In this document: piece by piece, positions 4,201 to 64,000 of the stretch
How positions within the stretch are numbered: position 1 is the first letter of the stretch
How the letters are laid out: the number at the start of each line of letters is the position of its first letter
Assembly (NCBI RefSeq): GCF_036785885.1
Contig: NC_092312.1
Location: 15,084,001-15,148,000 of the forward strand
DNA from: Coffea arabica
Lineage: Eukaryota > Streptophyta > Magnoliopsida > Gentianales > Rubiaceae
DNA: 64,000 nt
Reading direction: 5' to 3'
Translations under genes and position numbers: made by a program
Notes under the pieces: generated by a model
Seen by the model: only the letters and a program-made list of their open reading frames with translations
What the model was told of the DNA's origin: nothing
Database searches by the model: none

Positions 4201-7200
4201 TTTTACAATATTAGTCCTGAATGAATTCTGTCTGACTAATGTTGTGGTTAAGGGGTTTGTTTTTCCTCCTTTTAGATAAGCATTGACCGCATTGCTATTC
4301 CTATTTGAACTTCAAAATTTATCATGGCAGAGATTTTTCTTTAGAATTTGTTAGACTGGTAACTTGGGCTATTTATACTTCACATCACAGCCATATCACT
4401 AGTTACCAGGTGAAGGTAAATAAAGGATAACGGCTATATGCAAATTACCATAGTAGTTATGATTTTGCCCGATGAAAACTGCGGAGGGACAAACAGTACC
4501 TTGAATAGTGTTACATAGCTAAGTCTTATTTACTTAAAATGAGGAGATTATATTTTCAATAGTCTGGAAATATATATAAAAAGAACCTCTTGGGCTTAAT
4601 TTATGTGGATTGGCGCAAAGTCTTAACTTCAGTTATTCATCCTGTCTTTGATGATACGCCCCCCCCCCCCCACCTCACCAAAAAAAAGGGAAAAAAAAAC
4701 TATGCTTTGATGATTTCCTCAAGGTAGATCTTGTCTAATTTTAGGATAATACTCATGAGGTCCTAACTGTATCTTTAACAGCATGGATATAATTGGATAA
4801 ACAATTAATATTTGGGGATTGAAATACAGGAACTGGATCTTTTGGGATATAGACTCATTTCTCTGATTACTCAAGGGGATTTAAATAACAATAGTCTATT
4901 ACTTAACTTCTCTAAATGCCTTGAAAGAAATACTGATATTTTCAGAACTGAAATCACATAAATAAATTCACCTATTGTCCAAGGAACTTGAAATCTCATG
5001 CTTATTCTCTTGTATATGATACAACTTCTTATGATTCTAGTTTAATCTGCAATTTTCACACACGCAATAAAAGGTGGTTGAATAGCTTATGAAATTATGA
5101 TAAGATCAATTTTCTTGCTAAAGATATAATAAAGAACTTGACAAAATAACAAAATTTATTTTCCTACTCAATCCCCAACCCCCCCCCCCCCCCCCCCAAG
5201 TAAATGTTTTTAACCAACAGCAGTTTTCTGTTCTGCTATTTCTTTACTTTTGCTGGTAATACTTGTGGTCAGCTGGGGGAGATTTTTGGTAACTTGGAGG
5301 AAATTGTGAATCCAGCTATTTTCTTAATATCTGATTGATGCAATTTAATACTTAGAATGCACATACTAACAAGTTGATGCCATGTGGTTCAGTGTCAAAG
5401 AGACAATTAAGAGGTACAAAACGGTAAATTCAGATTCTGCGAACACCGGCTCTATTTCAGAAGCCAATGCTCAGGTATGATGTTAGAGATTTAGTCTTCC
5501 AAAGAGGTTTTTCTTGAAAATTCCGTGAGATAGTATAATTTTCTGTCCACATTTGTGGTTCATTTTAAATTATCATCCCATGCATTTCTGAAGAACTCTT
5601 AACGTAACAAATTAGTTTTGAAACATGGGTAAGTATAGATCCATTCTTAACAAACTTGCACCATCAGACCTTTAGACAAGTTAGGCCTTCCAATTTATGG
5701 TGATGCTTCACAATTTTATTTTTTTTTGAATTTTCTTTTAATTAATGAAGCTCCATCTTGCATGCCATAAATGGTACTGTGTTTTCAGCAGCACTGACTT
5801 TACGTTGCATGTCATGACAGCACTACCAACAGGAAGCATCGAAACTGCGTGCACAGATCAGTAATTTGCAGAACTCAAACAGGTGATTTCTGTGGTCAAA
5901 ATTCCTCTATACAGTTATTTCTATGACCTGTTAGATCCACTGTTCAATTAACCCTTTTACTTGATGTCTTTCAGGAACATGCTTGGTGAATCTTTAGGGT
6001 CGTTGAATCTGAGGGAGCTCAAGAATATAGAAAGCAAGGTTGAGAGAGGCATTAGCAGAGTCCGATCCAAAAAGGTACCTGTTATTAAATTTTATTCAAC
6101 TGATTTTTTCCTGGTATTATAGTCTTGCACAGTTTATCTATGCTTCCGAACATAACGTGTCCATTTCTTCCCTCTCTGACATTGCAGAATGAACTTTTGT
6201 TCGCGGAAATTGAGTTCATGCAGAAGAGGGTAAGTTTTGATGAATTAATCTAGACTTCTTGAATGCATCTTATCTGCAAATGAGCCTTGCGAAAAGGAAG
6301 TTGAGAGTACATGAAGTACATAGCACTATAATATGGTTACCCGTTTTATTCAGCATTCATTTTGACATGATTTTCTTTCTTTGTACTTGATAACGAATTA
6401 TGATTTGTAAGAGTAAGAGGTTGGGTTGGAAAAATATGCTAGACTAAAAATTTTAAAGAACAATTGAAAAGTTCGTAAATAGGGGTCATAGATATTTGGG
6501 AGCTGAAACATATTAGAAGCATGATTAAGAGATTTAATAATATGGTATCTGTCAAGGGTGGCAAGCATCATTTTGTACTCATAATCTCCATCTTTTCTAA
6601 CATGTAATAGCTAGGAATTAGGATTCTCAATACAAACAAATTTGACCATGATTTTTCAATATTTGTGTGTGTGTGTGTGTTCTTTTTTTTTTTTTTTTTT
6701 TTTGGTGGTAAAAAGAGGAGAAATATTGTGATGATTTATTTGAACTCATTCTATTGCCAAATAAAAATTTATGACCCTGATGCTTGTCATATCTATTATT
6801 GATCTAAATCCTCCCTCAAGAATTCAGTCAATCCAGTTTGCCGGAAGAGCTATAAAATAAAATTCACTTTCCTGCTTTTAAGAGTTGAGAGACCTAAAGA
6901 AAGCCTTGAAATGTTAGTGCTAAGACAAGAAAATGGCACTGATATGTAAACCTTGTAGCAGTTACACTAGCTTGATCTTGCAAGGCTCCTGTTGCACACT
7001 TACTCAATTTGCCATACATCAATCTTGAATGCAGGAGGTTGATTTACATAACAACAATCAATACCTTCGATCAAAGGTCAGTTCCTCCAAGTGACTCTGT
7101 GTGTGTGTGTGTGTGTGTGTTATTTAACGTATATATGTGTGATTGTGTGTGCGCGAGCATTTGTACACATACACACACACGAATTTATGCAGTTTTCTCT

Positions 7201-14900: not shown

Positions 14901-16810
14901 ACAGTTAGTTAAACCTAAACCACACTATATTCTCTGCGTAATTAATTGGTGTAGTAGCTACAATCTCTTGTTGTGAAATTTTAGTTATACTTTTGAACAT
15001 TAGTTGCACCTAGACAACGCTATATTCTCTTGTTTTTTCCCTCACAGGTTGGCAGTACCAAGTTACTTGACTTAGTTTTCCATCTCAATTAAAACTTAAT
15101 ACCCATCATGCATGGTTGGTTTTTACCTGTTCATTCGTCTCTGTTGTCACTTTAAAATAGTTGAGCGTGTGATCAGTTACGTGACCTAGGGCAGCAAGTT
15201 TGTCGGAAATGCACTCCAAACATTAATTTGCGTGAGGCAAAAAACTTTTGCAATATTGGCTGTACTCCTTGGAATTGGAAAGTGGCACTCAAAGAAGATG
15301 ACAGCCAGGTAAGGGATGTATGATCAATTACTTCCAGCTTTCACTCTATCCGTTAGCTTTACTATTTAATACCTTAAAGCATCAAATTATCACACATTTT
15401 CCTATCATATTGGTTATCAACGAATTGTCTCTATTTATTTTGAAATCAAATTTCCTTGGCGCCCTTAATTTGCAACTGTTTATACAGATACTATTATTCG
15501 TCTGCAGCTACTGAAGTATTTTTCTTCAAAAAAAAATAAGTGTTGAAGCTCATTGGTTTTCAACCGATTAGAGGAATGAACTATGGTAGTGTAAGGCACC
15601 TGAATACAACCCTTTGTGAATTAGGAACCGAACCGCGAATCTTTTACAGTTCAAGGATGCAGATTTCTAGTACCCTCACATTTATCATCTCCCTCAACTG
15701 TTTGAACTCCAATAACTACTAGGTGGTTTTTATAATTTGATTCCATTAGCAAATAGGGTTATCTGGGAAGAATATTAACTTGTATCCTATCAGATTAAGT
15801 AGTGTGAACAATCCATCTAACGGAAAATTTTCTGACTTTTTGCTAAAGTGTCCTCAGATGAGAAGTTTAGGGGGAAGATGAAGAATATGGTCGAACTTTC
15901 ATTCTTTATCAGGATTGACTTGCTGCATGAAAAATAGGGTCCAATGGCTGCACTTAATATTTTTCTTGATTAATTGATTTTATGTAGTAAAGTCGGGGGT
16001 AGCTTGAAAGAAATAGAAATTTGTGGTGCATATCTTTCATTCTTTTGTTCTTTTAAATTGGGTCATGTATGTACCTTTCTTATATGCTTCCTTAGTTCAA
16101 CCCCAAAATATCCAATGACAATAGTATGCTAGTGTTGATGCACAAAAGGAGCACACAACTACAAGGTTGTGGGAGAAATTACCCGATGTTTACCAGTCTC
16201 ATCGCGAATTCCAGCTCCTCCTGAACCATAATTTATGCCTTTGATGATTTCTTGACCGCTTGCAGTTGCAAATGGTGGAATGAAATCATTGAATCCAAGG
16301 AGCTGAGCTGCAATAGATTATCAAAAATGGGTTTGTTACCATGTCATGTAAACTGAATGAATAGAACAGGTTAATCATTGTTAAAAAGGACCTCAATAAC
16401 AATAAATTTTGAGAATTAATTGAGAGAGGGTCTTTCTTGCTTTCCAAGCAGAACAAAAGAAATTACCAAAAAAAAATAAGGAATAAAAGCCAAAAGTGCA
16501 GAAGAAATGAATTTAAGGAAACTTATAATTCCAAAGAAAAATCTAGAATAACGAAAGAGAGGATACCAACAATATCGATGATTGTTCTTCCATTTGTGAA
16601 TCTGCCTGTTGGCCCATCAGGAAAATCAATTCCGTAGGGCCGGTAATTGGCCTTGGAAGTTGTATCAAGGTTATTGTTATTGCCATTATCAACTAATGAG
16701 TCCCCAAAGCTAAAGAAACAAGGGATCTCTTGTGCACCTAAAGTTGTTTGCGGGTTGAAAATGATGAAACCTATGAATACCAGAAAACATGTACAGACTT
16801 TAAAAGACAT
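11996..16810 (-). CDS. GDSL esterase/lipase B, intact, 5 exons, 358 aa
   Basis: Predicted secreted Ser hydrolase of the plant GDSL/SGNH family (At1g29670-like type by its motifs); substrate unknown. Exons: 16810-16567, 16307-16183, 14166-13921, 13154-12914, 12216-11996, lengths 244/125/246/241/221 with phases that join cleanly. A hydrophobic signal peptide covers residues 1 to about 25. Block [12 protein letters not shown] (nucleophile Ser38), block II YGSGGAG (108-114), block III IGSNDY (Asn169) and block V WDDFHP (Asp321, His324) are all present. I chose ATG 16810 because it starts the signal peptide; the open frame extends 91 codons further upstream but that part has no family similarity and contains the TATA region. 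Intron 2 is 1.9 kb. No defect seen; likely functional. Confidence 0.92.
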
Positions 16811-16903
16811 AGGAACTGGAGAGAGATGTATATAAAACTGACTAAGAGAAGGATGAAGAGATTCAAGGTTATGGTGCCAAATGGTGGTTGTCGATTTAAT
16901 TGT

Positions 16904-16913
16904 GCATATATAG
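16904..16913 (-). promoter_or_regulatory. TATA box of GDSL gene B
   Basis: Minus-strand CTATATATGC about 95 bp upstream of the ATG. A nearer TTTATATACA at about 16829-16838 is too close to the start codon to be the main TATA element. Confidence 0.5.
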
Positions 16914-17209
16914 TTGCAGCAACTAATTAAAAAACATGAGAATCGACAAACTCTACATGTTGTTAGGCAATTTTTTTTATAGTTTTGAACTACCCTCGGA
17001 CAAAATCTCCGGATTCCCAGGAGTCTATCCGGAGTTCCGGACGAGATGTAAATTGAAGCATTATATAGACGGAAGAAAATCATCTGAAATTAGATAAACT
17101 GTTTAACTCCATCGTTATTTGAATGCTTAGCTACCTTGGAAATTTATTTAATTAGTTGCGCCTGCTCATTGTGAGTGCAACTCTTTTTTTTTCTTCCTTT
17201 TTCTTTTAA

Positions 17210-20800: not shown

Positions 20801-22115
20801 CATGCTCACCAAACCAAGGGTAATTTGTCTTCTTATATTGACTATGCTAAGCAGGTTTATTCTGTGACAGATGTTTTCGCAGTGTACTCATTTCGTGCTA
20901 ACTATTTTGCAACCAATTTACGCCCAAAAATCTAATTTTCAATTAAATGAAATGGAATGTCTAATTTCCTTGTGATTTAGGAATAAATAAACTAATAAAC
21001 TCTAGCAGAATCGATCCCCCGAGATAAAATGTAATAGCATACGTTATGAAATCGAAAGATTAAAAACAAGAAACTGCAAACCGCGAGTCAATGACATAGA
21101 TAATAGTTTATCCTTCGCTTGTTTACTTTTACAAGGATTTGGAATAGTAGATACCGTTGAGTTCTATATGATTTTGTATGGTTGTTGTACTTAATAAACT
21201 ATCTATTTTTCACTATTATAATGACATTGTATTATTGTGCACCAAATAATGTAACAAATACAGCAAATTAACAGAAAAATACAGCCTCACTTGACCCAAA
21301 CTCCTGGCAAGTTACATGCATGTATGTATGACCTTTAATCCCATATAGCAAAGACTGCTATCAAGAAAGTACTCACCATTTGTCTGCTAGTCTCATCGCG
21401 AATTCCAGCTGCCCCTGAACCGTAATTGACACCTTTTATGATGTCCTGACTTGTTGCTGTTGCAAATGGAGGAATATAGTTCTCAAATCCTACGAGCTGA
21501 CCTGAAAGATAAATTTGTTCCCATCGTGGGTCAGTAATGTCTAATAAGTTGGAGTGAAAATGAAAGATAAAAGCTAATGTCTTGGCAAGAGGACTTGGTA
21601 ATTAATGTTCAAACAATATCATTTTCAGCTTTTCCAAAGCAGGGTTGCAATCGATTGTTGAAAAAAAGGAGGAAAAAAGAAAGGTGGAACCAGAGAAATT
21701 AAATAGACAAAGAATATTAGAAGAAAGTTGAACTAATCAAATGATGTGTGAATAGCTAAGCAAGATAACCCTTATTGAAACGATCTCCAAGTTTTTTTAT
21801 GCTATTCCCTTCCACAAAAACAACGCCAAATTTTATTAAATTTCCAAGATGTAGGGTTGGGAGATATGTACCTAGGATGTCAAGAATGGTCCGGCCATTG
21901 GTGAATCTGCCTGTGGGACCATCGGGAAAATCGATCCCATAAGGTGGATAATTCACTTTTGCCAAAGTTGATAGGTTGTTGTTATTGCCGTTATCAACTA
22001 ATGAGTCTCCAAAGCTAAAGTAACATGGCACTTGAGGTGCACCCCAAATTGGCTCAATATTGCAAAAGACCAATGCTATTGGCAGTATAAACCATATACA
22101 AAACTTAACAGCCAT
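17822..22115 (-). CDS. GDSL esterase/lipase C, intact, 5 exons, 356 aa
   Basis: Second intact member of the array. Exons: 22115-21872, 21501-21377, 19950-19705, 18920-18680, 18036-17822; the first four match gene B in length and phase. Signal peptide about residues 1-25 (MAVKFCIWFILPIALVFC), then [18 protein letters not shown] with nucleophile Ser38. Block II reads YGSGAAG, block III IGSNDY (Asn169), block V WDSFHP (Asp320, His323). It ends [13 protein letters not shown]. Splice sites are canonical (exon 2 donor GTGAGT, exon 4 donor GTAGGT). Predicted secreted esterase/lipase, probably apoplastic, substrate unknown. Gene B starts its 3' exon about 5.3 kb further left in the same orientation, so B and C are tandem duplicates. 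Confidence 0.92.
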
Positions 22116-22177
22116 AATTGCCCCAGTGACGGCGGAAAGGAGAGGTTTGTTTAGTTTCGTTATCTGGCCAAAGAAGC

Positions 22178-22187
22178 AAATATATAG
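22178..22187 (-). promoter_or_regulatory. TATA box of GDSL gene C
   Basis: Minus-strand CTATATATTT about 65-70 bp upstream of the start codon. Position and sequence suit a core promoter. Confidence 0.55.
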
Positions 22188-24419
22188 ACGTATGTATACG
22201 CACACACCCACGCATACATGTGTATAAAGAAATAGAATGAAAGTAAGGGTACAAATGGTTATTCTAAAGCTAGATTTGGATCTATTTGTGTAATTGAAAT
22301 TGCCTCACCCTCGAGTTTTGGCGTACCAATGAAAACTTTTGAATTTATACCTCTAACTTACACTTCTTCTTCTTGAACCACTCAGTCTATCCCTTCCCGT
22401 ATATAAAAATAGTTTATAAAAAAAAAAGCTTAATTTGAATTCTAAGCATATTAACATCAACATCTAGGCCATTGACACAACATGATAGTATCAATATTTG
22501 TAAGACGATTGACGTAAAAAAAAATGCTAATAATATAGAGTTAGTTCAAGATCCAACTTAGTTGACAGAAAACTAACGAAGTAAATTTTGATGTTTTTAA
22601 CTCAACTTTTGAAACTTCCCATTTTCCCCTTCCATTTTATAACGTTTAGAGTCTATCTGATTTCATTAAAAAATAATAATAATAACGATATCATCCCAAA
22701 AACACGCAAGGAACACGGAATTTTTTTGGCACTACAGGCAGGTGACAACATTGGTAATCTCTGATGGCATGGCAGGTGGCAACTGAACTTTTGTCACGGC
22801 ATTATAGTAGAGCTCAAAAGAGAGCGTACAACTTGACATGCTTACCGGGAAGTCAATGTAAGATTGGTTGGCTAAATGTCAGTGGATGGTTAGGAGGAAG
22901 AAATTGTACAACGAATTAGTAATGGATATATATTTTTTTTTTCAAGTCCAACTTGTGGTTGTAGTAAGGCTTAAATTAATAGAAAGGATCAAGAAGCATT
23001 CCATCGATTCCGATCCAAAATATGCTCCTCGCATCCCATTAATTAAATAACCATCAAGAATGAACAAGCTTTCTTTAGTATGATTTTCGTTTATGTGCCA
23101 TCTAGCCCATCTACAAAAAGTATGCGGGACACACGGGCATAACTACCAAGGAATAAATAATGGGCTTCTGACTTCTCCATAGTTCATACAATTATTGCTT
23201 TTGTCCACTATGTGTGACACCCGGACAACTTAGGCAGCTCACATGAAAACTAAAGGCGTTTTATGATTATGATTTTGATAGTCAAATGATTTTGTTTTTA
23301 GTATAATTCTCGAGTCCATTAATTTAGAGTTCCTGAGCGAACAAAAAAGGAAGTGTGTCAAGGCACTCAATCGATCAAAAGTTCAAAGTTGACAAAATTC
23401 CTGATTGTTAACATCTTAAAGATGGTCTCAAGTGATCCAATATACTTTGCTACGATTTTTAAGTTTTATAGAATATAAAATTGTTGGAATAACTTATAAG
23501 ACTCAACAAGATATTCGGCAGTGTTGTTGATTTGTTTGTGGCTTTATCATATTTTTATGACCACCTGTTTTTTAAATAATTAGTTTTTCAACTCCAACAA
23601 TATTACATTGTTAACAACGCTTGTTTCAGAAAAGAAGGTATGAATAAAAAGTTCAGCCCTGCTTGCTGTCCAATCACTATTCTATGTGCAATTATCATCT
23701 CAACTGCTGTATCATACAATTGGCGAATACCTGCACATAGTCACATACTACATGGAAAGTAGTCATCACATAGAATCATACTGTGTGTTGACTAACGTGA
23801 GAAAGATGAGAGCCCAAATATTAAGATCAAAGCCTTAATATTAGGCTAAGAATTTCCTCTCTTGCAATATTTGCTCCCACACTAAAAGTGATCAAGAAAA
23901 GTTTAAGGGTTGAAATTGTACTTTGGACCCTTAATTTGCAGACGCATTTCCATTTTACTAGTACTTAAGCATTAATCTTAGATACTTTACAATCTAAGGC
24001 ATGAATTTTATCCCACTTTAATTCTAGATACTTTATCCCTTCAAATGTGAAATTAATCTTTAAAATTGTCAAAAATTAAGGTATAAAGTGAATAGATTTC
24101 ATACAAGTGATATTCAAAGTTTAAGATATAAAGTGAATAGATTGCGTAGTTTAGAGGGTGCAAATTGTCCAAAATTGAAGCTTAAAATCAAAGTGGATGG
24201 ATTTCATTCTGTATGAGTTAAAATGTCCAAAATTAAGATTTAATGAGAGCTAAAGTAAGAATACATCTACAATTTAAGGGTCTAAAATTAAATTTAACTA
24301 AAATTTTAAATGGTCCCTCCTTCAACTCATTATTAGTCTATGACTATGGACATACACTCGTATGTACAGTGAGAAGGATAGGTGTATACACTTAGGTTAG
24401 TTTTAAGTGATCCCTCCTC
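22188..24419. other. spacer upstream of GDSL C, downstream of remnant D
   Basis: AT-rich spacer of 2.2 kb in which exons 2-5 of remnant D would be expected but are not found. Around 24000-24290, phrases such as GGTATAAAGTGAATAG recur imperfectly, suggesting a decayed repeat. A GTGACACCCGGAC motif at about 23215 recalls termini of some plant repeats but I could not delimit an element. Confidence 0.35.
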
Positions 24420-28139: not shown

Positions 28140-30864
28140 TCACAGTTGAGCAAGGTGGCGAATGTCCATTGGATAAGCATCCGAGGGCAGTACTGAATAA
28201 AAGGCTCTGACCGAGTAAGCTTGATACACAGTCTCGGTAGGATGTATGGCATCATAAAACGCGTACTGGGTCCTATTGCAGCACGGGGTACTTCCAGAAA
28301 TGCAGAGTCCAGTTGATGAATCAACTTGGCAGCAGGGTTCAGTGAAAAATTGTATGCCTTATATATAGAAGAGAAAAGTGTTACTATAATTTTCAACAGG
28401 TTTTGTACGTCGTTAGTTGTTACAATTTTTTTTTAAAAAAAATTCTTAATACAAAGTAGAAAATTGTAGAATTTTTGGAAATAAAGTACTTGTGGTATTA
28501 TTGACTAAAACAAGTCCAAAAAATACCTCCAAAATTCTTAAATTAGGTTCATCTTTCTCTCCTTAGAATCTAACCAGTACATCGACTACTCGAGTTTAGT
28601 GGTAAAATTTTGATATTGCTTTTCTTTGATAGAATGTATGTAGCTGAAAATGGTATATAGAATCCACTAGTCCAAAAGGGGGAATTCCAATCAATATTTT
28701 GTTTGCAAAACCATAGAAGACAAAGGGCCTTAATTTTGAATTTCAAGCGGCATAAAATGACTTCTCTTTTTCATCTCACAAGAATTTTTTTCTGTGTACT
28801 AACAATTCACAATTAGAAAGTTAAAGGACCAAGAAAAGATGCTTTCGGAAAGTAATTAGACGATTTTCAAGGATAATTAACCCATGAAAATCCTAGGTGT
28901 AAATAGAAACAGTCCTTACCAAGACTTGTTGGATCTCCTGACTGAATGCTGCTAGTATTTAAATAGATGAACTTTGCGCCCACTAATTGTGAATTAAGGT
29001 CATCTACAAGTGGTTTAAGTCTGCCATTAAATATTTGAACTGCGGCATTGACTGAATCCACGCACGTAGTCCCCCCGGAACTATCTATCACTGCAGGAAT
29101 ACAACCAAGGGCGCCCAATCCAAACAGTGCAATTTTTCTAGCTCCATAATTGTACAAAGTCTAGAATAAGAAGATTAACAAGTCAGTTGTCCTAGTTTTT
29201 CTTTGCAAATATTTCACACGTTAAAATAGAAGAGGAGGGAGAGAATTTTTACAATGAAATTAATATAATATTGGCATGAAAAGAAAAGATAGTATGGTAG
29301 ATAACTTAATGCTTGTTCGAGTTGGTTAAGAAGCATCATGCACTCAATTAAAGTGTAACAAATATGCATTTCAAAATAGTACAAAACTGATCAGCAAATG
29401 GTCAATTAGACCCTGTTTATCAGATGTTCTTAGGCCATGCGGTGTGTATTTGTTGCACTGCAGTACATAAAAGAATATTAATGCTTTGTTGTTATGGAAA
29501 TTAGTATGATATAGAAATGTTAAATAAAGAAAAGTCTATGATGAGGGAGAACAAAATATATGTAATTATGTAATTATAGCACCGACCTTTAGTTGTTGAG
29601 AAAATTGTCGAATCAAAACTTCAGCATATTGATCTGGGGTATAGGTCCTACTTGTTGAATAAATTTGTGGCAGGAAGTAATTGTTGAGGTAATCATTGCT
29701 TCCAATCAGAACAGTATACAAGCATTTGCTTAGATAATCTTTTGCAGAAGTCGGACCTCCGTGTAAGAGACTAATACGTGAAATTGTTCTACCATGATTC
29801 TGCAGCTGTTGGTTAAAGCTGATACGAGCACCCTGTGAAATTAATTGAGTCATTAAGTTGTCCACGCTTAATTATCAAACATAAGAAATTAATCCGAGGG
29901 AGACAATATTTAGATGAAGGACAACATACCGAAAACTTGCATAATCAAATTATTATGGCAGAGGGATGGCTTGAGCAATAGAGGAGAGAAAGAGTACGAG
30001 TGAGAAGTTTCAAATTCGAAACCTCCCGCTTACTATATATATATATATATGTATGTGTATGTGTGGGCGCGAGGCGCAAAAGTTCTTATTCTTTTGCTTT
30101 AAACTGCTAAAGTTGAGTATGGTTTCACAAGATGGAAAATCAATTAATTGACTTCATGTCATGATTTTTTTTTTTTTTTTTTAGAATTTCAAACGTTAGG
30201 AATTCAATGAGATTCTTCAAATCTGCTAGAATTAACCTATATATATTAGCACATAGCCACAACAATTTCGATATGAGTAAATTAGTATAGCCAGCCGGTA
30301 GGGACTTATGGACATGAGCAAACTGGTAAGAATTGTATGCAACAATTTGACGAAATTACCTGCTGAAAACTTGTCTCATCGCGAATTCCAGCTCCACCAG
30401 AACCATAATTTACACCTTTGATAATGTCCTGTCCTCTTGCAGTTGCGTATGGGGGGATAAAATTATCAAATCCGAGGAGCTGAGCTGCAAGAAAATTCAC
30501 CAAAAAGATGATCATGGCAAAAAAACAAAAAACAAAAATGGATTGTGCTTTTCTGCACCATAAGCTAAATTGACAAAGAAAATATGAAGGTTTAATTTGG
30601 TCCTTCAAAAATATAATTACCAATAAAGTCAGGAATGTTTCGACCGTTGGTGTATCTTCCTGTTGAGCCGTCAGGAAAATCAATCCCATAAGGTGGATAA
30701 TTTGCCTTTGCTATTGTTGGGAGGTTATTGTTATTGCCATTATCAGCTATAGAATCACCAAAACTAAAGTAACATGGCACTTGAGGTGCACCAAGAACAA
30801 ACTGCATGTCAAACCTGACCAATCCCATGAACACAAAAATCCATATATTAAACAAAAAACCCAT
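28140..30864 (-). CDS. GDSL esterase/lipase F, intact, 5 exons, 357 aa
   Basis: Third intact array member and the most compact. Exons: 30864-30621, 30484-30360, 29832-29587, 29160-28920, 28357-28140 (244/125/246/241/218). Signal peptide about 1-25, then [18 protein letters not shown] with nucleophile Ser38. Block II YGSGGAG, block III IGSNDY (Asn169), block V YDAIHP (Asp321, His324); Tyr replaces the Trp seen before the catalytic Asp in B, C and G. It ends [12 protein letters not shown] chose ATG 30864 because it opens the signal peptide; the frame stays open further upstream only by running into a MITE. A SINE-like insert lies in intron 2. Predicted secreted esterase/lipase, substrate unknown. 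Confidence 0.92.
29955..30045 (+). mobile_element. SINE-like element, family 2, copy 1 (intron of GDSL F)
   Basis: Contains GGGATGGCTTGAGCAATAGA (box A-like) and AAATTCGAAACCTCC (box B-like), then CGCTTAC and an (AT)n tail. It matches 60800-60900 over its length (shared GGGATGG, AGTGAGA, TTCGA and CTCC.GCTTAC). It lies in intron 2 of gene F, antisense to the gene. No clean target-site duplication was identified. Confidence 0.55.
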
Positions 30865-30956
30865 TTTGAATAAGAAATAATTACGGAATGAATGACAAAG
30901 TGTACTACAGGTTTCTTTCCTTAAGTTTGGTTGTTGCCTTTCGCAAAGGAGGAACA

Positions 30957-30963
30957 ATTTATA
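30957..30963 (-). promoter_or_regulatory. TATA box of GDSL gene F
   Basis: Minus-strand TATAAAT about 93 bp upstream of the ATG. The target-site duplication of a hAT MITE starts three bases beyond it, so everything upstream of the core promoter has been displaced by about 0.46 kb. Confidence 0.6.
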
Positions 30964-30974
30964 GTGTATGGAAT

Positions 30975-31437
30975 TAGGGGTGTTTCGCGAATCGAGCCGC
31001 TCGCGAGCCGGTCGCGAGTGGCTCGAATACGAGCTTGACTCGAGCTCGTCAATATCGAGTTCGAGTCGAGCTCGAGCCAATTAAGTCGATCTCGATCTCG
31101 AGCTCGAGCTCAAAAACATTAAGCTTGTTGGCTCGCGAGCGGCTCACGAGCTCAATTATATATTTATTTTTTATTTTTTATTTGATAGTAAAATTACATA
31201 TATATCCCTAATATTTTATTATTTGTTAAAAAATTATTATTTTATTTATTTTTAAAAATAAATATTTATTTTTTATTTTTTAAAAAATAAAATAATTATA
31301 ATTATTTTTTTATTTTTTAAGCTCGAGTTCGACTCGAATTTGACTCGAGCTCGAGTTTGATATTTTGAGCTCGTCGAGCTCGACCTCGAGATCGAGTTTC
31401 ACAAAATTAACTCGAGTTCGGCTCGTTTGCATCCCTA
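30975..31437. mobile_element. hAT-type MITE (463 bp) at the gene F promoter
   Basis: Ends TAGGGGTG and CATCCCTA form short inverted repeats. It is flanked by an 8 bp target-site duplication, TATGGAAT (30967-30974) and TATGAAAT (31438-31445), 7 of 8 matching; 8 bp is the hAT signature. Both subterminal regions are packed with GAGCTCGAG-like palindromic words and the centre is almost pure A/T. No coding capacity. The same subterminal style occurs in the 1.5 kb element at 45378-46870. Confidence 0.85.
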
Positions 31438-43424: not shown

Positions 43425-45134
43425 TGATAGGTTGCAATTTATTCATTTATTTTATTATTAATTCCCCCTATTACCTGACTTGATGTGGATTAATTGCTGG
43501 ATTCTACTCATTTTTCTTAATTTACGTATATTTCAGGGAGTAGAACAAACAGATGATAACAAGTATCAATTTGATAGAAAAGGAGAGCAAGTAGCAGCGC
43601 TTGTCTCAGGGGCAATTTTGGAAATGGCAGAAATCTTTGGGCCCTTTCTTTTGGGCATGGGCTGAACCGAAGAAGGGCTTTGTTCCTTCCCTGGCTGGAG
43701 AGCTGCGGCAGCAGGCAGGAGAAAAGGAGGGGATAAAAACCAAAAAAAAAGAGGGGAGAGGGGACGGCTGGCTTTTTGCTGGGCCCTTCATCCGTAGCTT
43801 AGGAGAAATTTTTGACTTGACTTGACTGGGACTTTTCTTGTTAGTTTTCCTTTGGCTTTTCTCCACGCATGTGAGGAGGAAGCAACTTTCTCTTTTAGCT
43901 TTGACTTTTCCTCCTTGTACCGCTGGTATGGTTTTGCCATACGGATGCTGGGAATAATAAATAGATTCAATTGCAGCTTGAGACTTTCATTTGCGTTCTT
44001 ACTGTTCGACGAATTGCAACTTCCTGAAACGCAGCTAATGGCTGCTGGTTTCTTTCCAATTTCCCGTGGATTTAGTTCATCAATTATGAGCTAATTTTCC
44101 AATCCTAGTCAAGGAGTAACGAAGGCTCTGGCTCGCCTAAAAATTGTGAGATCGATTTAATTTAATCTTTCCCTTTTCTTTATTGGTATTCGTATATTCC
44201 CTGATTACTATGCTTATGGTTATTTAATTAGTTGATTGTCTTGGATCCGGATAATTAATTGATTTGGTAATCTACTATCAATTGGGGTATTAAATTCGTA
44301 ATTGTTTAATTACCTCAAAATAGTGACAACTGGCACGATTAGATTCGTGTCAGGGGGATACGCGGGCTAATCTAAAATAACCCTGGTAGTGTGTTATTTG
44401 GTTAGAATAGGGCTCCTCTAATACGTAAGACAATTGGGGAATTAAATTCTACGGGCGTACCTAGGATTATTTCTCAATTAGAGCAGTGATTAACGGGCGT
44501 ACCTTGATCACCGACACAGTAAGAAGGGGTTGACTGCCATCGTTTGTTTGGTAGTTATAACCTATTTATTGATAAATAATTGGGATTGCCTTGCATCAAT
44601 GATCAATTAGGTGAACCGTTGCTGAATTTACTTCTTGGCTAGATCTTTAGTTAATATTTCCTTGATTGTAGTGGATTGCCATTTGACTTTTAATTGCCTA
44701 CTTTATTTTATTTTTGAATGTTTCCTTGTTTTAATTGATTTAGACCTTTAATTATTGTTATCCTGAGTTCGGTAAATTGTGGTTTAATTTCTAGTTAGTT
44801 GTTTATTTTTATTTTCTCATTGGAATTTAGTTAATTATCGCCGTTCCTACAAAATCACCCCCTGTGTTATTTTGAATTTCTTAAGAAACAAATATACTCA
44901 GTCTCTGTGGATACGACCCTACTTGTCCTGTCTACAAATTCATAATTATTTGTGAAAAGGAATAACCATTCCACTCGGGTATATCGGATCAAGCAAACTC
45001 TTCGGGAACAGGGTGAATCAAGTAACCCATTGCACACCTAGAGTCCCTGCTCCAGTACTTGGAATTGGATTTTGGTCATTTTAACTGACAATTAGGTTTA
45101 ACTTTATTATTGCACAGGTTTCGACAACCTGTTA
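43425..45134. mobile_element. fossil solo LTR, probably Ty3/gypsy type (1.7 kb)
   Basis: The ends TGATAGGTTG and CAACCTGTTA are near-inverted, and the insert is flanked by a 5 bp duplication TAGAG (43420-43424 and 45135-45139). The pre-insertion sequence is visible in the second copy of the host repeat near 47085-47105. No internal retrotransposon region remains, so it is a solo LTR. Assignment to Ty3/gypsy rests on a CTCTGTGGATACGACCCTA phrase that I associate with such LTRs; this is from memory. It is an old relic. Confidence 0.7.
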
Positions 45135-45377
45135 TAGAGTTGGTTATAACCCACTACTTTTTATGCATTAAAATAAATACAAAAATCTATAACCCACTAC
45201 TTGTTCCTTTTTTAGAATTTTTTTTAGGGTTAAATATAGTATATCCCTTAACTTTACATTTAGCTGCACTTCACTCCCTCAACTTTACATTTAGTTGAAC
45301 ATTTGTGATTTTTTTGAAACGTGATTGTAATTTGTAAAGCTCATTTATAGGGGTGATTATAGGGTTAGTGTGGTGAC

Positions 45378-46870
45378 TAGAGCTGTTAATCGAATCGGGT
45401 AGCTCGCGAGCCGAGCTCGACCCGGCTCGATAAGAGCTCGACTCGGCTCGTTTACAGAGAGAAACGAGCCGAGCTCGAGCTCTACTTAATACTCGTTTAT
45501 TAAACGAGCCGAGCACAGCTCGGCTCGTTGAAGCTCGTGAGGCTCGAAGGGTAAGGGTATTGTCGTCATTTCATCGTATATGTGGTACTAAACCTAAGTC
45601 ATCTCCCGTCTGTACTCTGTAGCCCTAATTTTTCTTTCCTCTTTTACTAACCTTTTCCCGCATAGCAGCCATGAGCCATCACCCTCCATTCTCAGTCACA
45701 CGCCTCACGCCGCACGGACCCTCCATTCTCACCGCCAGACGCCATCCCTAACCTCCCCTATTTCCTTTTTCTGTCAACTCTTTTCCAGTTCCACACCCGC
45801 AGCCGCACCCTCCATTCTCACCACTGTCACCGACTCACCATAGGAAGCAGCCGCACCCTCCTTCTCGTGACTCCATGAGCAGCACCATACGGAGCCACCT
45901 CGGTAGAGCCAGGGGCTATGCTCGGAGCACTGGGATGCATCACCCCAGAAGTCCTTGAGAAATATCTTAAAGTGGACTTTAAGGAGCCAGTGCGGTTCAA
46001 AGCCGGAGCACAGATCTTCTCAGAAGGTGGGCTTGACTACTTGGGAAACCCCAACCTTGTCCATGCTCAGAGCATGCTGGCAGTGCTCGGCTTCCAAGTT
46101 GTTCTCATGGGTCTTGTTGAAGGATATAGAATCAATGGTCTTGAAGGCGTCGAAGAGGGCAATGATCTCTACGGTGGCCAGTACTTTGATCCTCTTGGTT
46201 TAGCCGATGACCCTGTTACCTTTGCTGAGCTTAAGGTGAAGGAAATCAAGAATGGAAGGCTTGCAATGTTCTCCGTGTTCGGTTTCTTTGTCCAAGCTAT
46301 TGTCACTGGCAAAGGCCCTCTTGAAAATCTCTTGGACCATCTTGACAACCCAGTTGCTAACAATGCCTGGTCTATGCCACCAAATTTGTCCCCGGATCGT
46401 AAACTTTTCTTGCTTTGTCTGGACTAAAATTTGTGAATGGAAACTTTTTTATTAATTTATATTTATTTTGCCCAAGTATATAAAGCGATTGAGCTCATGT
46501 ACCGTCACAGATCCGCGATAGATGATCTGTTTTGGACATTTTGGTCATTGATGTGTTGTGAAAATGTTGAATTGAAGATGATAAATCAGGGAAAGTTTAT
46601 CTTCTTTTGTTAGGCTAAATACGAGTGTGGCGGGACCTGATGTGGTATCTCCCGTAGACGAGCTCGAGCTCGAGCTTGATGAGCTCGGCTCGATCTCAAA
46701 CTCGAGTTCGAGCCCGAGCTCGAGTTTTCTACCAGTACATCGAGTCGATCTCGAGCGCCTTGTGAAACTCGAATTATTAATCGAGCGAGCTCGAGCTAGC
46801 TCGATTAAAGGTTCGAGTCGATCTCGATTGTTCTATGCTCGAGGTCGACTCGACTCGTTTAACAGCTCTA
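45378..46870. mobile_element. hAT-type element (1493 bp) carrying an Lhcb3 fragment
   Basis: Termini TAGAGCTGTTAATCGAATCG and the inverse of the right end (TAGAGCTGTTAAACGAGTCG) match at 18 of 20 positions. The 8 bp target-site duplication is perfect: GTGGTGAC at 45370-45377 and 46871-46878. Subterminal regions of about 170-215 bp on both sides are dense in GAGCTCGAG/GAGCCGAGC words, as in the MITE at 30975-31437. The centre is host-derived: a C-rich 5'-leader-like stretch and most of a chlorophyll a/b-binding gene with some 3' flank. No transposase. A well-bounded, gene-carrying non-autonomous element, apparently young given the perfect duplication. Confidence 0.9.
45918..46427 (+). pseudogene. 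captured Lhcb3-type chlorophyll a/b-binding protein fragment
   Basis: The open frame begins [20 protein letters not shown], continuing in the donor from the usual RWA just before, and reads without introns through [39 protein letters not shown] and [20 protein letters not shown] to [10 protein letters not shown]. This is the C-terminal two thirds of a light-harvesting complex II protein. ITPEVLEK and VDFKEP wording favours Lhcb3 over Lhcb1/2. A one-base deletion after NNAW replaces the expected [10 protein letters not shown] by an unrelated tail; the original TAA is still visible at about 46401 in the other frame. The N-terminus with transit peptide and first helix is missing. It cannot enter the chloroplast as is. 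Upstream C-rich sequence from about 45650 may also be donor-derived. Confidence 0.85.
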
Positions 46871-47219
46871 GTGGTGACAAATATTTTTAATTATAAAAAT
46901 GTAACGTTGTATTAAAATAACATACGAATGAGCATTTGTCTTTAAAAAAAAGTTGGTAATTTTTTTCCCGAAAAAATAAGTTTTAAATCTATCGAATTTC
47001 TTTTTAAGGAGTAAAAAAGATTTAAAGTATAAATAACAAATTATAAACGGTTTATGAAGTAGATAGTTGAAATATTTGATTGGTGATAGGGTTGGTTATA
47101 ACCCACTACTTTTTATGTATTAAAATAAATATAAAAATCTAGAAAAAAGAATGAGAAGTTTGGAAGCCATTGAGAGGGTCTCTACTAAAAATCTCTTTTG
47201 CAATACATATAGATATAGA

Positions 47220-47756: not shown

Positions 47757-48542
47757 TCAAACCGTACATCCGCCGTCAACCACCAGATTATGCCCTGTGA
47801 TAAATGCAGAATCATCAGAGGCAAGGAATAAAGCAGCATCAGCAATATGATTAACTTTCAATACAGTTCCTTTTAAGCAAGAAAGAGGCTGATTCAACTT
47901 CTCAAATTCCTCAGCATCCATCTGAAACGAGCTGCACGTTAGCGGTGTAGCAACAGCAAATGGTGAAACAGCGTTGACCCTAATCCCATGTGGCCCCAGC
48001 TGCTTGCTAGCACATCTCATCAGCCCCAACATAGCATGTTTTGACATGTAATAATCAGTCCAACTCTCTCCACCCGTGGTGGCTGCTAAACTCGCCGTGC
48101 ACACTATGCTACCCTTTACTCCCCTTTCCACCATCGCTTTCGCTGCGTGTTTTACACATGCCGCCGTGCCTCGTACGTTGATGGCCATGATTCGATCAAG
48201 TCCTGCAAAGTCAAGATCGATCACCAATTGTTTTGACTTGCTAAATACTCCTGCGTTGCTGAACATGATATCTAGTTGGCCATAGGCATGGATGGTTGAA
48301 TCGACCAGTTTCTTGACCTGCTCTTCATCAGCTACATCGCAATGGACATAGCTGCAGGTTTCTGAGCCAATTGATTCGGCCACGGTTTGGCCCTCTTCAT
48401 CTTGGATGTCAGCGATCACAACTCTGGCACCATGGTTGGCAAAAAGTCGAGCAGTTGCCTCGCCTATGCCACGGGCACCGCCTGTTATGATGGCAACTTT
48501 GCCTTCCAACTTTTTGGTGATATTGGGAGCTGGTTGTGCCAT
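47757..48542 (-). CDS. short-chain dehydrogenase/reductase, single exon, 261 aa
   Basis: Classical SDR, probably a cytosolic NAD(H)-dependent alcohol dehydrogenase of the plant group that includes secoisolariciresinol, isopiperitenol and xanthoxin dehydrogenases (SDR110C-like). Seen: cofactor loop TGGARGIG (20-27), Asp45 at the end of the second strand (favours NAD over NADP), NAG (96-98), catalytic Ser151 (CTAS), Tyr164 and Lys168 (YYMSK), and RVNAVSP (188-194). The C-terminus ends NLVVDGGCTV. Length 261 is normal. The start MAQPAPNITKKLEGKVAIIT fits the family; no other upstream ATG in frame is needed. No intron or damage is seen. The exact substrate cannot be told from sequence; plausible classes are terpenoid, lignan or apocarotenoid alcohols. 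It stands alone between transposons, not in an obvious pathway cluster. Confidence 0.92.
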   Translation of the reverse strand: MAQPAPNITKKLEGKVAIITGGARGIGEATARLFANHGARVVIADIQDEEGQTVAESIGSETCSYVHCDVADEEQVKKLVDSTIHAYGQLDIMFSNAGVFSKSKQLVIDLDFAGLDRIMAINVRGTAACVKHAAKAMVERGVKGSIVCTASLAATTGGESWTDYYMSKHAMLGLMRCASKQLGPHGIRVNAVSPFAVATPLTCSSFQMDAEEFEKLNQPLSCLKGTVLKVNHIADAALFLASDDSAFITGHNLVVDGGCTV

Positions 48543-48629
48543 CGCTCTTTGAGATAATTTTTTTATCTCAAGAAGCTAGTCCTTCTTTAGGAGAAATTAT
48601 AGTCGTACCATGCGTCGGAGGATTGCTGC

Positions 48630-60500: not shown

Positions 60501-63272
60501 ACAAAATGGTAATTTGGGACTTTTAGATATATATATATATATATATTTTTGGTTGGTGCATGCAACACATGATAGCGACTAATGTCTGGGAGTATTTGAT
60601 ATACGTTTTGTCATTCAAGGGGTTTAACTATAATTTTGCAAAACAACAAGGTAGTTTTGTAATTTGGTCAAAACCACAGGGATGATAAATGTAATTAACC
60701 CAAAAAACTATATAAATAATATAAATAAAAATTTTCCATTTGAAATTCTCCTAGATAAGACAATTGTATGAATACTTAGATCTAAAGTCAAAACGGGAAG
60801 AGGAAGGGATGGATTGGACAATATAGAAGGAAAGAATATAAGTGAGAGATTTCAGTTCGAGGTCTCCGCTTACATTATATTAAAAAAAAAAAGAAATAAA
60901 AAGAAGAAGTCAGAACGGAAAGGTCCAATGGAGCCCAAACATTGGCCTTGAACTATAGGCCCCCCAAACAATTCTGTTCCAGTTCAAGGTTAAATGAAAT
61001 TCACTTGAATCAAGGATCCATGCCTCATTAGTCTATTTTAGTCCACTTCAAGTTTAAATGTCTATTTCAAATTTTTGTAAATCCTACTCTAATTTGTTTA
61101 TATTGTATTGAAACTTATGTACATCTCATTCTAACTTGTTTACACTCTAAAGGCCAGCTAATTTGATATGGAACTTGTGACCAGAGAAGAATGTGGATAT
61201 ATGATCATGCCAGTATCCCCTTATTGGACCATTCATAGTACTGGATTTTGGACATAGTTCGAAAACCATGGTGAATAAGTGACTCGAATCGTTGTCAAAA
61301 TAACTAATCAGAATTAAGTGCCCATGCCAACATGTCGTGGTTAAGCGAGGATTAAGGGTCTAAGCTTGAGTCTACTTAACACTTCTAACTGGCAGTATGC
61401 GAGAATGAGCCTACACTTTGATCTACACATAGTGGACAATCACTCTAGATTTCATTGCACACAAAAATTAAAAGAAAATGAAAATCAAGAAGCCAAGTAG
61501 TCTCCTCACTATAATGTGATTTGACCATTTTTGGATTGTCATTTTTTCTCAAAAAAATTTTACCTTTTCATGAATACATTTTTCAATCATCATATATATC
61601 AAATCGTTACATTACATTTTTTTTTTAACAAAGACTTCAGAAAACAATGATCCAAACGGGAGCACATTATAAATTATTTTGGCCAGAAGGAAATTTATTT
61701 GCCAATATTCTAATTCTCAATTCATAAATATTTATAAATGTTAATGCATCTTCTGATTTAGTTAAATTATGTTTAACTCGAGATCTACTGAGTGTAACAC
61801 ATAATAGAACCATGTACAATGTGTGTATAGGTAATTGAAGAAGACCACAAATAATAAACTTGGCATTCATGGACATCCTCATGTCATAGTACTGTACAAG
61901 GTACTATACATTTTCGGTGTCATAAAAAAATTTTCGGTGGGCACATTAATGGCACCTGACTTATTAGGCAGTGACATGTTCTCGTTTTTGAACGTCATAT
62001 AAAAGGTCTGGTACTACAATGCGTCACATTCCAACCCAGCAAAAACGCCTTTCAAGAAACATGGACAAGAGCATGGACAAGAAAATGGCAGAAAAAGAAA
62101 CATGGACAAGAGCAAAATTGAAAAATAGAGACAATTGGAGAGAGAGTTTATGTTAGTCTTGAAATTGAACAGAATTGGATTTCTTGAATATACTGCAATT
62201 GCAAAACAAAGGGCCGTTAAATCAGTTCTTAGCATGTGGATCGATGAACAAAATATAAACTATTTACTTTGCATTGAGATACATATACAGTATCATGTGA
62301 TTTTTTTTTTTTTTTTTTAAAAAAGGTTTAAAATGGCTGAAGTGATTTAGGCAATTTTGTTTTCATTTTGTAAGTGTATTCTAACCAGAGTAATGAGAGA
62401 ATATAGTAACATTGATCTGAAATTTCAAAACTTTTTATTTTTCAAAACAAAAATGTATAATTACCAGCTGGCGACCTGTCTGGTCAAGAATTCCGGATGC
62501 TGCTGATGCATAGTTAACGCCTTCAGTGATGTCCTGGCCTTTGATATTTGCAAATGGAGGCATGTAGCCGGCAAATCCAAGGAGCTCAGCTGCCAGAAAC
62601 AGACGTATACTTTCTTTCTATCATTAAGTAGCACATATCTAAGTGGCAAGCCCTAGCTTGTTTACGAAATTCATCTCTCTTTTTTTTCAGTCCTTAAACT
62701 TCAAGCATCTCTTTACGAGATAGATTTCATATTTTAAGAGTAATGTTCGAAGTTGAAGTTTAAGAACTATAAAGTTGATGCTTTCATATTTTAAGAGTTA
62801 AAAGTGTCCAAGAATAAAAATTAAAAACTCAGCTTGAAATGCTTTTAGGAGTCCAAAGTGGAATATAGTCTTCAATTCATAAAAGAGTCCATACGAATCA
62901 AAAAACTTTTTGAAAGAAATAATGCAATTTAAAAAAAAAAAAAAAAAAAAGAAAGAAGTTTTGTGCTGGATATTGAAAAAGAAAGAGATGGTTACCTATG
63001 AAGTCCGCATGGTTTCGCCCATTGGTGAAGCGACCAGTTGGACCTTCCGGGAAATCAATGCCGTAAGGTGGATAATTTGCCTTGGCGGTAGTGTTCAGGT
63101 CATTGTTGTTGCCATTGTCATCTTGTGAGTCACCGAAAATGAAGTAACAAGGGACCTGTGGATTGCCCAGAGCAAATGGTTGCAAGAAGAAGAAGATGAC
63201 CATTCCTACGACGGGCAAGAGAACCCATTGCTTTGTTACAAAAGTCATGAATGCCGATGAGGAAAGAAGCAA
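57591..63272 (-). CDS. GDSL esterase/lipase G, intact, 5 exons, 377 (or 369) aa
   Basis: Most diverged intact GDSL copy, about 27 kb from gene F. Exons: 63272-62996, 62589-62465, 59739-59494, 59370-59139, 57844-57591; exon 4 is 232 bp, 9 shorter than in B, C and F, and phases join. N-terminal hydrophobic signal (VLLPVVGMVIFFFLQPFALG), then PCYFIFGDSQDDNG with nucleophile Ser49 (from ATG 63272), exon 2 ANIKGQDITEGVNYASAASG (block II changed from YGSGGAG), block III IGSNDYIDSY, block V FWDDFHPSE. It ends with an extra tail, GIGSLGDTDSRDKLEIQ. ATG 63248 (MTFVTKQW) is an alternative start, 8 codons in. Introns 2 (2.7 kb) and 4 (1.3 kb) host a SINE and a MITE. Likely functional secreted esterase/lipase, from a different subgroup than B, C and F. 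Confidence 0.9.
58436..58726. mobile_element. MITE (about 290 bp) in intron 4 of GDSL G
   Basis: Ends TAGATCTTGTTTGATAAC and the inverse of TTTTATCAAACGCATTCTA are imperfect inverted repeats. The internal words (TTCAGCACTTAAATTTAATA and its mirror) continue the symmetry. It resembles 42406-43066. No clear target duplication. Confidence 0.55.
60800..60900 (+). mobile_element. SINE-like element, family 2, copy 2 (intron of GDSL G)
   Basis: GGGATGGATTGGACAATATA (box A-like) and CAGTTCGAGGTCTCC (box B-like), then GCTTACATTATATT and an A-tail of about 12. It aligns with 29955-30045, also in intron 2 of a GDSL gene and in the same relative orientation. Because the two introns are otherwise unlike, independent insertions are more likely than shared descent. 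Confidence 0.55.
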
Positions 63273-64000
63273 GTGATAGGAAAAGCCAGACGCGGAGGTA
63301 CCAAAGTCATTGCCAAAATATAGAAGGCAGAGGAGCTATTGCAGTTGGCTGTAGTGGTGGTCCACCTTGGGAGAGGGCGGAGCCACTCCATCTCCATGTG
63401 CAGCCTGTTAAACCTGACCCGGCAAAGGAGTCGGTGATTGATTCAACTAATGAATTGATTGTTGAATCTGTGGGTCGATCACTAAAAAAATATTTATAAG
63501 GGTAAATTATATTAACTTCCCCTCTTGTTTTTACAAAAGTTAGGGATCTCCACTCTTGATCTCGGAACAAAGAGGACCTCCCCTCTTGTCTGCCAAATAA
63601 CAAGAAAAGCTTCCCTACCTAGCTATGATCAGGGGAGAAATGTTAACTACTTTTGTCATAAACTCAATTCAAAGTCCCCAAACCACCATTTCAATGACAC
63701 AAGTAATTATTTCCAAAAAAAAATTAAGAAAAATAGAGTGGAGTACCGATCACACATAATTTTATTTATAGCCATAAAAGTAAATCCATAATACTTCTTT
63801 TCTATATTAGCTTTGCCACAAAATAAGTTGATGTCTTGAATCATTTATGTAATATTCATGTATATACAAGTTGAAATTTTAAATTGTTAATATATTTGAT
63901 AAATGTACAGTTTGGACACCTCATTTTATTAGAATCCAATTTATTCTTGAAGTAGGTACACATGCAAATCTATTAATTTTGACTGGGAAGAATAAAAATA
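63273..64000. other. upstream region of GDSL G
   Basis: Putative promoter and flank of gene G. A GC-richer stretch at 63290-63480 has open frames on both strands without family similarity. The rest is AT-rich. No TATA box is clear enough to report. Confidence 0.35.

Follow-up and report, generated by a model that had tools for sequence, protein, structure and literature searches.

The window, by which we mean the whole 64,000-nt stretch of Coffea arabica DNA analysed here, harbours at 45378-46870 a non-autonomous hAT-type transposon, a Pack-hAT, that carries a fragment of the light-harvesting gene Lhcb3 in its interior. Its parts, in window coordinates, are as follows.

45378-46870, + strand: whole non-autonomous hAT element (Pack-hAT), 1493 bp
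45370-45377, unstranded: target site duplication, left copy, GTGGTGAC
46871-46878, unstranded: target site duplication, right copy, GTGGTGAC
45378-45397, + strand: left terminal inverted repeat, TAGAGCTGTTAATCGAATCG, 18/20 against the right end
46851-46870, - strand: right terminal inverted repeat, TAGAGCTGTTAAACGAGTCG in inward reading, 18/20 against the left end
45412-45482, unstranded: left GAGCTCG-rich subterminal zone, 6 of the 28 window matches
46659-46793, unstranded: right GAGCTCG-rich subterminal zone, 9 of the 28 window matches
45560-45916, + strand: C-rich leader of the hAT family, cut at the capture point and common to related elements; left border approximate
45913-46516, + strand: captured piece of Lhcb3, spanning 163 donor codons of the last exon (beginning at AMLGALG) and ~118 bp of 3′ flanking sequence
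46169-46174, + strand, approximate place: in-frame 3-bp deletion relative to both donor-like genes, in 7/7 copies
46367-46371, + strand, approximate place: 1-bp deletion relative to both donor-like genes, shifting the Lhcb3 frame, in 7/7 copies
46517-46870, + strand: about 8 nt of no assigned origin, then the element's right internal part and right end

The element starts with TAGAGCTGTTAA at 45378 and finishes with TTAACAGCTCTA at 46870, exactly the borders of the ~1.49 kb element drawn in the initial annotation, and both the perfect 8-bp duplication (GTGGTGAC on either side) and the match of the two 20-bp termini at 18 positions were recovered. The GAGCTCG-rich subterminal zones described there are equally real, with this word counted 28 times in the window where 1.24 occurrences would be expected (at least 28 in none of 100 shuffles), and 15 of the 28 lying inside the element. 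Its hAT-type identity is borne out by these ends, by 8-bp duplications around all seven copies found in the genome and by a hAT transposase frame within the family, both described below. An autonomous element was rejected, because no transposase is encoded: the longest stop-to-stop frame (182 codons) is that of Lhcb3, and the second longest has 98 codons. The window element is a non-autonomous Pack-hAT, retaining both ends and carrying a host-gene fragment, while Lhcb3 genes persist on contigs C9 and C10.

The insertion site was examined by a whole-genome search with a 419-nt query, made of both flanks and a single GTGGTGAC. Among the first 40 of 460 places, 39 crossed the joined junction unbroken at 91-94% identity, over query 1-285 with the junction at 218 and with GTGGTGAC as a single copy; in these places query 286-338 had no match and 339-417 formed a separate matching piece, and the remaining one of the 40 is the window element's own left flank. 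Paralogous empty sites exist for the window copy, and since the empty form is found many times in the genome, the target of the insertion is taken to be one copy of a dispersed repeat. On either side of the element, at 45131-45192 and 47083-47144, lies a 62-nt direct repeat (92%), probably part of the dispersed repeat that hosts the insertion.

The core of the element is Lhcb coding sequence (PF00504, E 2.6e-27), in agreement with the initial annotation, and the Lhcb3 stretch, at element positions 536-1139, matches C9:52027317-52027928 (96%) and C10:47122958-47123576 (94%) contiguously, without an intron-sized gap. The C9 locus comprises three exons of 40, 54 and 169 codons (263 in all, frames read by eye), and the captured part extends from about nucleotide 17 of exon 3 to about 118 bp past the stop codon, a stretch of 612 nt in the C9 gene and 604 in the window copy. 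Therefore, the idea that most of an Lhcb3 gene had been captured stands as to the presence of an Lhcb3 fragment, but not as to its extent, which amounts to 163 of 263 codons, restricted to exon 3, with the frame shifted in every copy. The donor was identified as Lhcb3 because of the chains that the 263-aa donor-like protein matched best, namely 8z9d_33 (537 bits), 5xnl_3 (524) and 7oui_2 (516), the last of which is 'Chlorophyll a-b binding protein 3' and the sole one of the three named protein 3; next came a pair of multi-domain LHCI chains from 9vfj (500 and 450 bits), and the remaining chains among the best 60 of 85 matches scored at most 393 bits.

Relative to both donor-like genes, the seven copies have in common the 3-bp deletion, the frame-shifting 1-bp deletion near the Lhcb3 C-terminus and six substitutions, and three of them (L003-L005) also share an in-frame stop. 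Since the same junctions and lesions recur in all seven, they point to a single Lhcb3 capture. Comparison of the C9 gene with the C10 gene gives dN 0 and dS 0.064, whereas the cargo shows dN 0.014-0.019 and dS 0.046-0.066 against the C9 gene and dS 0.075-0.105 against the C10 gene, a pattern such as would be left by a fragment freed from constraint. Of the 12 sites that distinguish the two genes, nine have the C9 base in the copies, two the C10 base, and one is mixed; in this comparison, made without an outgroup, the donor lineage leans to C9. From these features we infer that the cargo is a decaying coding fragment lacking function, which lies in sense orientation behind the family leader.

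The C-rich part in front of the cargo had been described as a captured, leader-like piece, which did not hold, for it is native to the family. Accordingly, a second captured gene was rejected here, because the same sequence is common to other family members, among them L034, a relative with an intact-looking transposase frame. The last 23 nt of the leader occur in 15 of 48 other loci examined (at most 3 mismatches), L034 included, and in eight of these 15 the sequence runs on to GTAAGT, a good splice donor, which is why the leader is taken as probably the untranslated first exon of a transposase gene. On the opposite side of the cargo, the right internal part matches internal sequence of L025 and the right ends of relatives.

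At the left junction, GGGC is shared by donor and element and constitutes the first 4 nt of the cargo, with L022 reading AGGGGC/CTCTACC, the donor GTGGGC/TATGCTC and the element AGGGGC/TATGCTC. Among 20,000 random junctions, 1.6% had an overlap of at least 4 nt, and a single 4-nt overlap, present at the left junction only, is weak support in itself. At the right junction the donor match stops at GGATCCGC, followed by the ~8 nt and then by the element's own ATCTGTTTTGG. Had the Lhcb3 piece been a processed retrocopy, according to the initial annotation, it should have its own target duplication and poly(A) tail; looked for at the borders, neither was seen: within 60 nt of the 3′ border there is no run of six or more A residues, and the two 50-nt borders have no word of 5-12 nt in common. 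With such borders, and with the element's internal region replaced rather than interrupted, the proposed capture of the Lhcb3 piece by the element is upheld.

The family to which the element belongs is large. A 23-nt terminus pattern, searched genome-wide with one mismatch allowed, matched 359 + 378 = 737 times, a count of ends and not of elements, and the reversed control gave 0. Among 18 related loci (L011-L028), 11 have both ends with a perfect duplication and two a duplication with one mismatch; L026 has no duplication, and four are unpaired within the fetched stretch. The transposase-bearing relative L034 (L034:1732-7511, or C1:14581731-14587510) is 5780 bp long, is flanked by the perfect duplication ATTGTTAT, and contains at 4319-6451 a frame of 711 codons stop-to-stop with hAT-like RNase-H and hAT dimerisation domains (PF14372, 1.6e-26; PF05699, 7.6e-26), the C-terminal 71 residues matching Hermes-group transposase (4.1e-13); no BED-type zinc finger was reported in this frame at E 0.01. 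Its ends are TAGAGCTGTTAATCGAACCGGGC and TAGGCCTGTTAAACGAGCCGAG, the latter differing at two of its first 12 nt; the right end reads TAGGCC against TAGAGC in the window element, and the two elements are 68% identical over the left 444 bp and 86% over the right 207 bp. Judged by its sequence, L034 is likely the type of the autonomous partner and a candidate source of transposase; as its ends are only partly alike and hAT dimerisation-domain matches in the genome number at least 150, another hAT transposase could also have served the window element.

An 8703-bp pair at L029 was passed over in favour of L034 as the transposase member, since its duplication has two mismatches and it has only a 217-codon transposase-like frame. 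A possible 12.6-kb member extends from L030:595 to L031:5710 (C2:9648494-9661109) with a 669-codon transposase-like frame, and also has a retroelement-like frame, perhaps that of a nested retrotransposon. Two short members of 522 bp at L039:8462-9581 share their orientation and are separated by 76 bp, with CTTCTAGT on either side of each; an element may have been duplicated locally together with its flank.

The cargo transposed further after its capture, as seen from seven copies with differing duplications and flanks and from empty sites. In a whole-element genome search, the best 40 of 607 candidates included at least seven full-length cargo-bearing copies, on contigs C3, C4, C9 (two copies), C2, C14 and C19. 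Every one has its own perfect 8-bp duplication, all different (GTGGTGAC, GTGTTTAG, CTTGTACA, CAAATCAC, AAAGCGAT, ATCACAGT and CTCCTAAA); 2 nt are gone from one element end in L002, and pairwise identity among the seven ranges from 96.65 to 99.73%. The two C9 copies, L003 and L004, start ~98 kb apart in opposite orientation, with unlike duplications and flanks. The Lhcb3 regions of C9 and C10 align over 6.2 kb at 96.4%, on which basis the two contigs were considered homeologous, and the homeologous empty-site test covered these two of the seven copies. Neither C10 site is occupied: the 500-nt joined query for L003 aligned end to end at 97% with a single CTTGTACA, and in the L004 query positions 1-300 crossed the junction (at 250) with 99% identity, the remainder being found ~3 kb off. 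The C10 site of L003 is 8 bp longer; an excision footprint was rejected, since the extra bases lie elsewhere and the empty site is clean.

A tree of the seven copies has two supported groups, L003-L005 and L002/L006/L007, and within the former L003 and L004 (C9) and L005 (C2) differ at 4 of 1501 sites in each pair. The figure given in the Arabica genome paper for the allopolyploid founding event is one that we presume to be in thousands of years. It is put at 610, and a rate of 1.3e-8 per site per year was applied in the same paper (PMC11018527). At this rate the divergence of L003, L004 and L005 corresponds to ~0.1 My, with a wide error from only four changes, which is younger than the founding event and suggests that the cargo moved after the allopolyploid origin.

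Relatives with the same kind of ends and other cargo, for which a search had been advised, do occur, namely a sister with a kinase fragment and the GGACT-type L032. Donor searches covered three of the seven listed cargo segments (L011, L015, L021, L024, L027, L028 and L032). The cargo of the sister Pack-hAT is the terminal part of a receptor-like kinase gene (PF07714, 2.4e-6), whose donor-like locus at C4:3577589-3578287 has the splice donor CCAG/GTACGT, an intron of ~1.1 kb and the acceptor TTTTTGCAG/AATATGC; the element contains the last 50-60 nt of this intron, then the exon and 3′ flank. From the 20 places listed in the kinase search, the five copies at 98-100% over the whole query (L044-L048) were examined, and all five have perfect, differing duplications; other matches include C2:56007682 (127 nt, 98%) and C19:8666880 (91%, query 3-551). 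The cargo of L032 is of GGACT type (PF06094, 5.3e-13) and includes both leader and coding sequence of such a gene, its source region C3:170947-171643 aligning at 83% with many gaps and its duplication having one mismatch. The L011 cargo resembles a C14 stretch, in which no clear coding frame was seen and which is longer by 187 bp bounded by the repeated AATTTCGGCCA. Intron loss in the L011 cargo was rejected, because the 187 bp, which contain tRNA-like promoter words, read as a SINE insertion. This SINE-like insertion (L056:347-534 on C14, with AATTTCGGCCA flanks) is absent from the L011 cargo and was gained later.

These captures bear on the nature of the template. A loss of introns had been assumed for the Lhcb3 cargo, which proved mistaken, as the captured stretch is intron-free in both donor-like genes already; the absence of introns therefore says nothing on DNA versus cDNA. 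The comparison with the genomic Lhcb3 locus that had been suggested did reveal a retained 3′ flank, but there is no intron border in this stretch, and from the Lhcb3 cargo by itself DNA and cDNA capture cannot be separated. The kinase sister, retaining 50-60 nt of donor intron, shows that DNA was captured in this hAT family at least once, and by analogy the template of the Lhcb3 capture may also have been chromosomal DNA. The broader reading, that an Arabica Pack-hAT family captured several host genes (light-harvesting, receptor kinase and GGACT) and that captured cargo was still moving after the allopolyploid origin, the family retaining an open transposase frame to this day, is offered tentatively, at slightly less than an even chance.

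Based on these findings, we propose with considerable confidence that the element is a multi-copy Pack-hAT that originated from a single capture of Lhcb3 by template-switch repair, followed by trans-mobilised spread. In this scheme, an ancestor within the TAGAGCTGTTAA family of hAT elements would have lost its internal transposase gene, and a double-strand break in the ancestral element, or left by it, would have been repaired by synthesis. The repair synthesis would most likely then have switched template at the GGGC overlap to chromosomal Lhcb3 DNA, so that part of the last exon and the 3′ flank would have been received in one event. The product, retaining both ends, would have been moved by transposase supplied in trans, probably from relatives like the 5780-bp C1 element, and would have spread by at least six further insertions, each making its own 8-bp duplication. 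Template-switch repair is favoured because there is neither a poly(A) run nor a flanking duplication and because of the GGGC overlap.

Other routes to the same structure have been weighed against capture by repair. Insertion of elements on either side of the Lhcb3 last exon, with aberrant excision by the outer ends and loss of the inner ones, is a model proposed for Pack-TYPE elements including hATs (PMC8903248), and neighbouring insertions do exist, as the C9 cargo copies and the L039 members exemplify. However, the cargo borders lie in internal sequence, that is in the family leader and the right internal part, no further terminus-like 12-mer (at most one mismatch) was found inside 45378-46870, and additional deletions would be required; hence we regard this tandem origin as unlikely. 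A switch of the repair synthesis onto reverse-transcribed mRNA would also yield an Lhcb3 piece of exon and downstream sequence only, but the donor intron in the kinase sister calls for a DNA template at least there, and a cDNA template appears very unlikely. The intron-free cargo, ending in 3′ untranslated or flanking sequence, could likewise have been an mRNA copy of Lhcb3 that a retroelement put into the hAT element and that was later carried along. Such a processed retrocopy was rejected as highly improbable on account of the intron-free donor stretch and of borders lacking an A-run or shared word, and the replacement of the internal region by the cargo, as well as the donor intron in the kinase sister, also speaks against it.

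As to what the captured piece does now, a functional chimeric gene under selection could be read from the sense orientation of the cargo behind the family leader and from dN/dS values of ~0.2 to 0.4 against the C9 gene, in which both branches are counted. However, the frameshift is present in every copy and an in-frame stop in L003-L005, the frame of the window copy has no start before an internal Met and so no transit peptide, and the dN of the cargo contrasts with the 0 between the two donor-like genes; selection for a chimeric product can hardly be entertained. We therefore retain the template-switch capture of an Lhcb3 fragment that has since been decaying.

The capture is of a known kind of gene shuffling, one less often reported, and entails no new mechanism. 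Gene-fragment capture by hATs has already been published for maize and rice (PMC3260210; PMC8903248), and, as the initial annotation had it, is described as rarer than capture by other transposons (PMC8903248; PMC3260210; PMC8277862). The maize Ds2 and Ds-l4 elements resemble the coffee element in being non-autonomous hATs whose internal part is replaced by filler, sometimes a gene fragment, but belong to another plant and have another terminal sequence; introns were retained in the named cases, which establishes DNA capture there, and the donor lay on another chromosome (PMC3260210). That report has two Ds2 and nine Ds-l4 elements with gene fragments, whereas in coffee one capture was amplified to at least seven copies, and the Lhcb3 donor-like genes and a likely transposase source are found in the same genome. 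Maize and rice Pack-hATs share hAT ends, 8-bp duplications, captured coding DNA and multi-copy clusters with the coffee family but differ in species and terminal sequence, and in the main text of that study no word starts with coffea, photosynth, microhomolog or intron (PMC8903248). Pack-hAT-N8_XT and other animal Pack-TIRs are similarly multi-copy, with breakpoint microhomology (at one or more breakpoints in 190, 67.6%) and template-switch models, although in animal hosts (PMC8277862); in coffee two junctions of one capture were examined, with microhomology at one. The whole word hAT is absent from the main text of a 2026 review of plant gene capture (PMC13317346), and no word starting with hAT occurs in the available text of the Arabica genome paper (PMC11018527). 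No published report of a coffee hAT family with this capture was found among those titles and abstract openings that literature searches listed from open-licence papers. The rice pair nDart1/aDart1, a non-autonomous and an autonomous hAT, is alike as a lead only; its ends start with TAGAG and it makes 8-bp duplications.

What the coffee family adds is the full set, comprising seven copies, donor-like genes, a junction, a transposase-bearing relative and sister captures, so that the capture mechanism, in terms of junction overlaps, introns and age relative to polyploidy, becomes testable over several independent captures of one family in one genome. It also explains the presence of a photosynthesis-gene piece at seven places, copies that annotation could mistake for extra Lhcb3 genes.

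Several other features were seen in the window. A further GAGCTCG-rich stretch at 30975-31396, starting near TAGGGGTG, contains the other 13 of the 28 window matches (at 31041-31382) and is 74% identical to the element's left end over 105 columns; it is apparently a different, degraded relative. The gene beside it has, judged by its motif, a GDSL-like reading frame. Similar words recur in four frames, all on the - strand (16526-17089, 21759-22304, 30595-31080 and 62901-63335), probably a group of GDSL-type lipase genes, again judged by motif; a Pfam search of 21759-22304, the one frame of the four searched, returned no family. A MADS-box domain frame lies at 1104-1586 on the + strand (PF00319, 4e-27), and a short-chain dehydrogenase frame at 47760-48575 on the - strand (PF13561, 1.5e-64), ~900 bp from the element.
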